Positions 48,494 through 51,797 of a stretch of DNA of 64,000 nt are shown in pieces; positions within the stretch are counted from its first letter, which is position 1, and every line of letters starts with the position of its first letter. The notes under the pieces are model-generated. The model was not told where the DNA came from, searched no databases, and saw only the letters and a program-made list of their open reading frames with translations. The stretch spans positions 124,001-188,000 of the forward strand of contig JASLKG010000001.1 in the NCBI GenBank assembly GCA_030747695.1. The letters are read 5' to 3'. Origin of the DNA: Candidatus Poseidoniaceae archaeon. GTDB taxonomy: Archaea > Thermoplasmatota > Poseidoniia > Poseidoniales > Poseidoniaceae. The translations under genes were made by a program, and so were the position numbers.

Positions 48494-49906
48494 TTAAGTT
48501 CGTTTGTTGAATTCTATCTGAAAATGCGGAATATGTAGTACTGAAGCCAAAACCTGTCTGGCAATAAACCACAAACCTGAGATTAATATTCCAATCCAAA
48601 CTAAATTGATGATCAAGTGACTAATCAGACTCATATCTTCAGTAATTTTGGAAATAATCCATGAAGAACCATTCCATATTGAATGACCACTAATAGCAAA
48701 CATAATTCCAATTATTGGCTCTTTAGGCAAACTCCATGTCCTCTCAACTGGTTTGTACAACCATCTTTTTAATTTGAGTGAAATTGCGGAATCACTACTA
48801 TTGACATCAACCAATTGTCCACTATTTGAATCAAACACCATCCAATTTTGTTGAATCTGCCTGTTTTCACTATTGATTACCATTCCACGAGTTCGGCAAA
48901 GCCACCATCCTATAGACAATCCTGAAAGACTTGTCCAAAAGGCATGACCTGGTATGGATCCAATACCTCTTATTATGGCAGTTAGAGAATAGGATATAGC
49001 AGCTTCTTCGTTTAGTAATGAGAATAAAATATATTGTAAATTCTCTAACATTGCAAAGCCTAATCCAACTGAAAAACCAATCTGAAAACCTCTTCTTGGT
49101 GAGTCTATAAGTCTGTAGAGTAGTAATACAAAACCTGCCTTGCATAATTCTTCTCCAACTGGTGCACTAATAGCAAGAATTAGTAGCTCCCCTATTGATC
49201 CTGGGCCATGATCAGTAATTCCAATAAAATTCAGAGTTTCAGGGAAAATTAGTGAATTGATAATTATCGCTGGAATGGTTGATAGCATACCTGCAATCAG
49301 CATATTTTCAGCAGCATATCTTGTAGTCATAATTTCTAGATATCTTGTTGAAAAGGCCCACCATGCATGAACTGGCAATGAGAATCCGAATAACCAAGCG
49401 GGGATTCCAATCATTAGTGCTAAAACTACGTATAATGGGTTGCTATTATCCAAAAACACAGGTAATAATCCTAGGAATGAAACTAGTACTGTGACGCCAA
49501 ATACAAACCATAACGTACTTGTTTTGGGAAATTCTACTGGTTCAGAATTCCTGACAAGATGATGTTCAAAGGTTGTGGGAATAGGAGTTTGTAACATTCT
49601 ATTTTTTGTAATCATGTGCTGATTAGATCCTTCTTGATTAGGAGATGCCACCAATATGTGAGTTAATTTCGGACGAGTTACAAATAGATGCAATGCAAGT
49701 AATGGCAATAAACAAATCCCTCCAACTGCTGTCAAAAATGGATCGTTTTCATACAAACCATAAACCACAATTACAAAGAATTGTGTTAACAGGTATAGAA
49801 GAATGACAATACCAAGCATTTTCCATATTACTTTCCATGGAGATGAAGAGCTTGCCAATTTCAAATTAGCAGGGGGAGGGGATAGTGGAGAAATCCCTCT
49901 CTGCAT
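48494..49906 (-). CDS. PrsW-like intramembrane metalloprotease family protein
   Basis: APVGEELCKAGFVLLLYRL, GLGFAMLENLQYILF, GHAFWTSLSG in multi-TM context. Confidence 0.75.
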   Translation of the reverse strand: MQRGISPLSPPPANLKLASSSSPWKVIWKMLGIVILLYLLTQFFVIVVYGLYENDPFLTAVGGICLLPLLALHLFVTRPKLTHILVASPNQEGSNQHMITKNRMLQTPIPTTFEHHLVRNSEPVEFPKTSTLWFVFGVTVLVSFLGLLPVFLDNSNPLYVVLALMIGIPAWLFGFSLPVHAWWAFSTRYLEIMTTRYAAENMLIAGMLSTIPAIIINSLIFPETLNFIGITDHGPGSIGELLILAISAPVGEELCKAGFVLLLYRLIDSPRRGFQIGFSVGLGFAMLENLQYILFSLLNEEAAISYSLTAIIRGIGSIPGHAFWTSLSGLSIGWWLCRTRGMVINSENRQIQQNWMVFDSNSGQLVDVNSSDSAISLKLKRWLYKPVERTWSLPKEPIIGIMFAISGHSIWNGSSWIISKITEDMSLISHLIINLVWIGILISGLWFIARQVLASVLHIPHFQIEFNKRT

Positions 49907-49953: not shown

Positions 49954-50020
49954 CCCGCTCAGTTCGCCCATCAATCGTCACTGAAACAGCAGTCCGCTCT
50001 CAAGCAATCATCATCGCGGG
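49954..50020 (-). ncRNA. Putative C/D-box sRNA (2'-O-methylation guide)
   Basis: Minus strand: CCCGC G ATGATGA(C) ...26 nt... GTGACGA(C') TTGATGGGCGAA(guide) CTGA(D) GCGGG; 5-bp terminal stem; intergenic. Confidence 0.65.
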
Positions 50021-50072: not shown

Positions 50073-51707
50073 CTAGTCATTTAGGAATCCATACGTCCAA
50101 TCATGTGGTGGAGCAAATGTTTCCTTTATCGATCTAGGGCTAACCCATCTTAGTAGGTTTAGAGGGCTCCCAGCCTTATCATTAGTTCCACTTCCTCTTG
50201 CACCACCAAATGGTTGTTGTCCAACAACAGCACCTGTTGGTTTATCGTTAATGTAGAAATTACCCGCACTATATCGTAGTGCACTCATTGCAGTTTCAAT
50301 ATTCACACGATCACTTGCAAAAATAGATCCTGTTAGTGCATATTCTGAAGTTTTGTCACAAACCTCTAGAATACGTTCAAAGTCATCATCTGGATATACA
50401 TGTACTGAAAGTACTGGTCCAAATATTTCTTCAGCCATACTTTCATATCGTGAATCTTCACAAACAATAGTTGTAGGTTCGACAAAGTAGCCAACGGAAT
50501 CATCATAATTTCCTCCAGTTATAATTTCACATCCGGGGTCTTCTTTGGCACGATCAATGTATCCTGCTATGTTATCGAATGATTTTCTATCAATAACCGC
50601 AGACATGAAATTTGTAAAGTCTGTTGGATCACCCATCGTTATTTTGCTTACTTCTTCACAATAATCATCCTTTATTGCTTCCCAAACGCTTTGAGCAACA
50701 TATACTCGACTTGCAGCACTACATTTTTGGCCTTGATATTCGAAACCACCTCTTAGCATAGCAACCAGTAATGCCTTTCTATCACAATCAGGATGTGCAA
50801 CAATGAAATCTTTGCCACCAGTTTCGCCAACAATTCGTGGGTATGAGCGAAGATTTTCTAGGTTATTAGCAACATCCTTCCACATTTTTCTGAACACAGC
50901 AGTAGACCCAGTGAAATGAATTCCTGCTAATTCTGGATGAGAGATACAAATGTCACCAACTAAAGCAGCTCGGCCTGGTATGAAATTGATCACACCAGCT
51001 GGTAAACCAGCATCCATCATTAGTTTCATTAATCTATAGTTCGACACATAGGAGTTCCTTGAAGGCTTCCACACACCAGTATTGCCCATTATTGCCGCAG
51101 AAGAAGGAAGGTTTGCTGCAATACTACTGAAATTGAAAGGTGTAACGCTGAAAACAAATCCTTCTAGAGGTCTAACTTCACTAGAATTCCACATGCTAGA
51201 CGGAGAGACAGGTGGTTGCAGATCTTCGTATATCTGTCTACAATAATCTGAATTAAATCTCCAGAAATCTATGAGTTCGCAAGCAGAATCAATTTCAGCT
51301 TGATGGCATGTCTTTGATTGATTGAGCATAGTTGATGCATTGATTTCAGATCTCCTTGGCCCAGCAAGTAATTCACTTGCCTTGAGGAAAATAGCACAAC
51401 GTGCCTCCCATGGCATAGTTGACCACATCGTGTGTGCAGACAAAGCAGCATCAATAGCAGCATTGACTTCATCTTCTCCTGCCATGTGTACCTTTGCAAT
51501 AACATGAGAATGATTGTGAGGCATTACTTGTTCAACAATATCTCCTGTATAGACTTCTTTTCCATTAATGATGCATGGTATCTCGATTACTTCGTTTTCC
51601 TGACGAGTTAATTCCGCTCTGAGTTCTGTACGTTCTATGCTACCTGGAAGGTATCCTTTGACAGGTTCATTTACAGGGGTAGGTGGAGTCACTACGTTGT
51701 TGACCAT
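50073..51707 (-). CDS. L-glutamate gamma-semialdehyde (1-pyrroline-5-carboxylate) dehydrogenase
   Basis: GFVFSVTPFNFSSIAANLP, VGETGGKDFIVAHP, FEYQGQKCSAASRVYV; start MVNNVV. Confidence 0.93.
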   Translation of the reverse strand: MVNNVVTPPTPVNEPVKGYLPGSIERTELRAELTRQENEVIEIPCIINGKEVYTGDIVEQVMPHNHSHVIAKVHMAGEDEVNAAIDAALSAHTMWSTMPWEARCAIFLKASELLAGPRRSEINASTMLNQSKTCHQAEIDSACELIDFWRFNSDYCRQIYEDLQPPVSPSSMWNSSEVRPLEGFVFSVTPFNFSSIAANLPSSAAIMGNTGVWKPSRNSYVSNYRLMKLMMDAGLPAGVINFIPGRAALVGDICISHPELAGIHFTGSTAVFRKMWKDVANNLENLRSYPRIVGETGGKDFIVAHPDCDRKALLVAMLRGGFEYQGQKCSAASRVYVAQSVWEAIKDDYCEEVSKITMGDPTDFTNFMSAVIDRKSFDNIAGYIDRAKEDPGCEIITGGNYDDSVGYFVEPTTIVCEDSRYESMAEEIFGPVLSVHVYPDDDFERILEVCDKTSEYALTGSIFASDRVNIETAMSALRYSAGNFYINDKPTGAVVGQQPFGGARGSGTNDKAGSPLNLLRWVSPRSIKETFAPPHDWTYGFLND

Positions 51708-51710
51708 GTT

Positions 51711-51725
51711 CACCCCGAAGGGGTG
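51711..51725 (-). promoter_or_regulatory. Hairpin containing the ribosome-binding site of the P5C dehydrogenase gene
   Basis: Minus: CACCCC-TTC-GGGGTG-AAC-ATG. Confidence 0.55.
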
Positions 51726-51797
51726 CCCCTCAAAGAATTGCCTGCACAACTTCAATTTCTTAAAAAAGCATAAATTCACCATTTGTGACAGATAATC

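Follow-up and report, generated by a model that had tools for sequence, protein, structure and literature searches.

Between two minus-strand genes of a Candidatus Poseidoniaceae archaeon, one of the aldehyde dehydrogenase family (50073-51782) and one for a PrsW-like protease (48494-49906), lies an intergenic element of 67 nt. Two questions are raised by it: does it encode a guide RNA, and if so, which ribosomal RNA would the guide address? All positions refer to the window, that is the whole stretch of 64,000 nucleotides that was analysed.

Anatomy and distribution of the element

On the minus strand, from 50020 to 49954, the interval reads CCCGC-G-ATGATGA-TTGCTTGAGAG-CGGA-CTGCTGTTTCA-GTGACGA-TTGATGGGCGAA-CTGA-GCGGG. 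The original prediction had seen here an exact C box, a C' box with one mismatch, an exact D box, a 12-nt guide between C' and D and a closing stem of 5 bp, and this reading is borne out, see Table 1. A search requiring the strict C/D layout and all 5 bp of the stem gave a single match in the window and none in 100 random windows generated with a first-order Markov model.

Only the internal box had to be moved. CTGC had been proposed as D', a choice that we reject because relatives carry CCGA or an exact CTGA immediately upstream; CGGA (49996-49993) is the more plausible D' box. Both internal boxes of the element deviate, C' by one mismatch and D' as a degenerate box, while D' is an exact CTGA in several relatives and in many members outside the order.

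Table 1. Features of the element at 49954-50020 of the window
Feature	Position	Strand	Remarks
Closing stem, 5' arm, CCCGC	50016..50020	-	Paired with GCGGG (49958-49954); stem covaries in relatives
C box, ATGATGA	50008..50014	-	Exact RUGAUGA; TGATGA invariant in 15 relatives
C-D' interval, TTGCTTGAGAG	49997..50007	-	Varies between genera; without supported rRNA target
D' box, CGGA	49993..49996	-	Degenerate CTGA; CCGA or exact CTGA at the same place in relatives; ACUGA of Rfam sR1 aligns here
D'-C' spacer, CTGCTGTTTCA	49982..49992	-	Unusually long, 11 nt; contains conserved CTGCTGTTT
C' box, GTGACGA	49975..49981	-	One mismatch; exact TGATGA often seen in relatives outside the order
D guide, TTGATGGGCGAA	49963..49974	-	12 nt; pairs with 23S UUCGCCCAUUAA and 16S ACCGCCCGUCAA; core nearly invariant over many families (invariance partly set by the scan pattern)
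D box, CTGA	49959..49962	-	Exact; invariant in 15 relatives
Closing stem, 3' arm, GCGGG	49954..49958	-	Partner of CCCGC; covariation

The element is conserved well beyond its own species. With blastn it was matched in 37 of 61 genomes of the same genus, family or order (the own genome included), and the matches are mostly limited to the 67-nt interval, with little beyond. Among the 15 relatives that were aligned, no variation is seen in the D box or in the cores of the C box and of the guide. Further, two covariance models, for which the original prediction had called together with box conservation, found nearly always a single copy per genome: R1 matched 204 of 294 genomes of the class, and R2 matched 220 of 297 genomes sampled from the phylum.

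The closing stem changes in a compensatory manner. In alignment A4, which covers many families, all six pairs show changes on both sides, with 75 such cells against a mean of 19.6 after shuffling. The covariation score is 0.654 compared with 0.160 for shuffled alignments; no shuffle scored as high, and slid controls were far lower.

In the window's own genome the fibrillarin gene directly adjoins a gene with a Nop domain (Nop5). Taken together, the conservation, the stem covariation and the presence of these two genes support the identity first proposed, and we conclude from them that the element is almost certainly an archaeal box C/D guide RNA.

The neighbourhood of the element could suggest another role. 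In most Poseidoniales loci examined the PrsW-like gene lies beside it, as would be the case for a conserved regulatory element of this downstream gene, acting as DNA or in the mRNA leader without any guide RNA. However, the same boxes and guide are present in other lineages at loci where the PrsW-like gene was not found, and the compensatory changes in the stem also speak against such an element, which we consider highly improbable.

About 25-60 nt upstream of the stem, many loci of the same genus (L003-L025) have a block like TGTTTATTTCAACCGGATGGTTAA in common, a possible promoter; the copy in the window shows no clear likeness to it.

A motif scan for TGANGANNGAYGGGCGRNCTGA gave at least 120 stretches. 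Among the matches listed are Methanobrevibacter, Methanosphaera, Archaeoglobus, Altiarchaeota, Diapherotrites, Methanofastidiosum and Aenigmatarchaeota, as well as a few records labelled bacterial. Some of the latter (L283, L289, L300) have no C/D layout upstream of the match and look like chance matches; others (L276, L318) do have one, and may be mislabelled records or mixed bins. In Archaeoglobi the same guide is placed between C and D'.

In box order, spacing, the 12-nt C'-D guide, the closing stem and the fibrillarin and Nop5 genes of the genome, the element is like other archaeal box C/D sRNAs. It differs from them in its degenerate D' box, in a C-D' guide that is not conserved and in a D'-C' spacer of 11 nt. 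An Rfam search at the locus gave no family above threshold. The best match was sR1 (RF01152), which has the same general C/D layout, but at 28.6 bits the window stays below the curated threshold of 45. The consensus guide of sR1 differs from GAUGGGCGA; despite this, two Archaeoglobi relatives (L410, L412) whose C-D' interval contains the guide of the window element exceed the sR1 threshold. The sRNA is a known, ordinary kind of archaeal guide RNA that Rfam does not cover at threshold. Among the results listed by a limited literature search there were no C/D sRNAs of Poseidoniales or Thermoplasmatota.

Predicted pairing of the D guide with 23S and 16S rRNA

According to the original prediction the D guide matches the A-loop region of 23S rRNA. 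The window's own assembly (87% complete) does not contain that 23S stretch, and the 16S and 23S rRNA of relatives are used for the comparison. The proposed target UUCGCCCAUUAA does occur in same-genus 23S, as GGTTGTTCGCCCATTAAAA, and TTGATGGGCGAA forms 12 bp with it, one of them G:U. None of 300 shuffled guides reached the score of this duplex.

The same guide also fits helix 44 of 16S rRNA. With ACCGCCCGUCAA it forms 10 bp over positions 3-12, again with one G:U. For the window guide the computed energies of the 23S and 16S duplexes are almost equal, -18.0 and -18.3 kcal/mol. In general the guide before box D has the form GAYGGGCGRN, which fits the 23S A-loop and 16S helix 44 about equally; in Poseidoniales the duplex with 23S is longer than that with 16S. 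Under the box D+5 rule, the nucleotide opposite position 5 is 23S C2558 or 16S C1402 (E. coli numbering; the placement is consistent with PMC7049736 and PMC7005279).

A target scan of nine genomes gave divided rankings. The top rank went to helix 44 of 16S in three genomes (G385, G389, G401) and to the 23S A-loop in four (G300, G303, G431, G026). In G036 a stretch outside rRNA scored highest, with the A-loop second, and in G465 another stretch of the 23S region was slightly above 16S helix 44.

Covariation between guide and 23S was sought and not found, the A-loop segment being unchanged wherever 23S was found. In two loci (L062, L063) the 23S and 5S rRNA are adjacent, with no 16S within the stretches of 7.6-8 kb; the 16S is located elsewhere in the same genomes.

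Guide variation and the choice of target

We collected 27 distinct guides from the model matches, in which the letters are not forced; the models were built on sequences of the T8/A2 type and may favour them. G stands at position 10 in 25 of the 27 and forms a Watson-Crick pair with 16S and a wobble pair with 23S. At position 8 there is T in 20 guides and C in seven, where C8 pairs with 16S G1405 and mismatches 23S. Position 2 shows the opposite preference: it is A in 22 guides (G in four and C in one), and A2 pairs with 23S U2555 and mismatches 16S C1399. In most guides positions 1-2 are complementary to 23S U2554-U2555.

When the guides of the motif scan are added, the 178 distinct sRNAs among the matches listed show the same tendencies, counts that are partly built in because the scan pattern allowed only G at position 10, C/T at position 8 and A/G at position 2.

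One clear compensatory change between guide and 16S was found. In G389, where the 16S is CCGCCTGTC (C1404U), position 7 of the guide GACAGGCG has changed so as to restore the pair, and the 23S is unchanged. G529, from the same family, has 16S CCGCCCGTC with guide GACGGGCG. In G523 and G524, 16S CCGCCCATC is combined with T8 guides, giving full pairing over positions 3-10, while in G381 and G507 the 16S is CCGCCTGTC without a change in the guide, which results in a G:U pair.

At positions 7, 8 and 10, judged by these sequences, the guide evolves with 16S, so that it mostly tracks 16S and not 23S; only the positions adjacent to box D, mostly A2, point to 23S. The earlier assignment to the A-loop holds as far as the pairing goes, but the same guide fits helix 44 and its variation mostly follows the latter. 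A guide that serves the 23S A-loop stem only, methylating C2558, would account for the long duplex with its score beyond all shuffled guides, for an A-loop segment that occurs without variation in every 23S found, and for the pairing of positions 1-2. Against it, C8 in seven of the 27 guides and A7 in G389 mismatch the unchanged 23S, and G10 is retained as a wobble though A would pair better. The methylation sites named for the archaeal A-loop are U2552, G2553 and C2556 (PMC4644070, PMC7994747), and in the literature on this methylation (supplements and most subscription papers lay outside the search) no report of Cm2558 was found, which also counts against this explanation. We find it unlikely.

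In bacteria the ribose methylation of C1402 is made by a protein enzyme. The equivalent nucleotide is m4Cm in bacteria, and it is Cm in the 30S of P. abyssi (Cm1376), in yeast (Cm1639) and in human (Cm1703) (PMC7005279); for Haloferax volcanii no Cm1402 is listed (PMC2584109). The yeast guide for Cm1639 is the snoRNA snR70 (PMC5199042), and a search of the text of the P. abyssi 30S paper found no guide for Cm1376 (PMC7005279). The proposed C1402 target is the nucleotide equivalent to that of snR70 (18S Cm1639), the likeness considered here being that of target position (PMC7005279 Table 4; PMC5199042).

Since the guide variation mostly tracks 16S and C1402 is known to be 2'-O-methylated in an archaeon, 16S C1402 is in our view the target of the C/D sRNA with the most support, and probably its ancestral one, and 23S C2558 is a possible second target; we hold this with reasonable confidence. 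The sRNA gene of this Thermoplasmatota archaeon would be transcribed into a box C/D RNA, whose kink-turns are expected to be bound by L7Ae, Nop5 and fibrillarin. The C'-D guide would then pair with rRNA, and fibrillarin would methylate the ribose opposite guide position 5. The main target would be C1402 in helix 44, at the P/decoding site; in addition the guide may address C2558 in the A-loop stem.

However, 16S alone does not explain the guide, because A2, found in 22 of the 27 guides, pairs with 23S and mismatches 16S. One guide, conserved in several archaeal lineages, might therefore methylate both C1402 and C2558, its sequence being a compromise in which pairing with 16S maintains G10 and Y8 and pairing with 23S maintains A2; neither target by itself explains all conserved positions, and the near-equal duplex energies of the window guide agree with this. 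On the other hand, CGCCC is common to both rRNA segments, so a partial double fit is expected by coincidence. The 23S fit is also lost in the C8 lineages, and there could be other causes for the retention of purines beside box D. We regard the double role as an option of some weight, yet short of an even chance. If true, one RNA would mark both tRNA-binding centres, the decoding site and the A-loop stem.

Returning to C1402 as the main target, a widely conserved archaeal guide for this nucleotide would, if true, link the archaeal and eukaryotic mechanisms. A guide common to several lineages is worth testing because a review from 2021 found no single position that is targeted in all of seven archaea (PMC7994747).

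The C'/D' region

The other half of the RNA behaves differently. The C-D' interval is not conserved between genera, and for the window organism TTGCTTGAGAG gave no significant rRNA match. In G036 the C-D' guide has an isolated 10-bp match to rRNA, which was absent from the other genomes tested and was set aside. In some genera the C'/D' region is swapped for a GC-rich hairpin or strongly shrunk, and the D guide is retained. Because the C-D' interval varies and the C'/D' region can be replaced while the D guide stays, it seems to be for the D guide that the sRNA is retained, and from this pattern the sRNA looks like a single-function guide.

Unlike the C-D' guide that precedes it, which is not conserved, the spacer CTGCTGTTT (49982-49992 in the window; also in L026-L030 and L095-L099) is kept in one family and in parts of a second. 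Neither CTGCTGTTT nor the string GACTGCTG gave a significant rRNA match.

In part of one genus a GC-rich hairpin, for instance GCGGCTTTGCCGC, is found in place of the C'/D' region (L109:1548-1614, L112:419-484, L119:1477-1543 and L120:1575-1641). These four loci keep the C box, the D guide and the D box, and other members of the genus retain the form with CTGCTGTTT.
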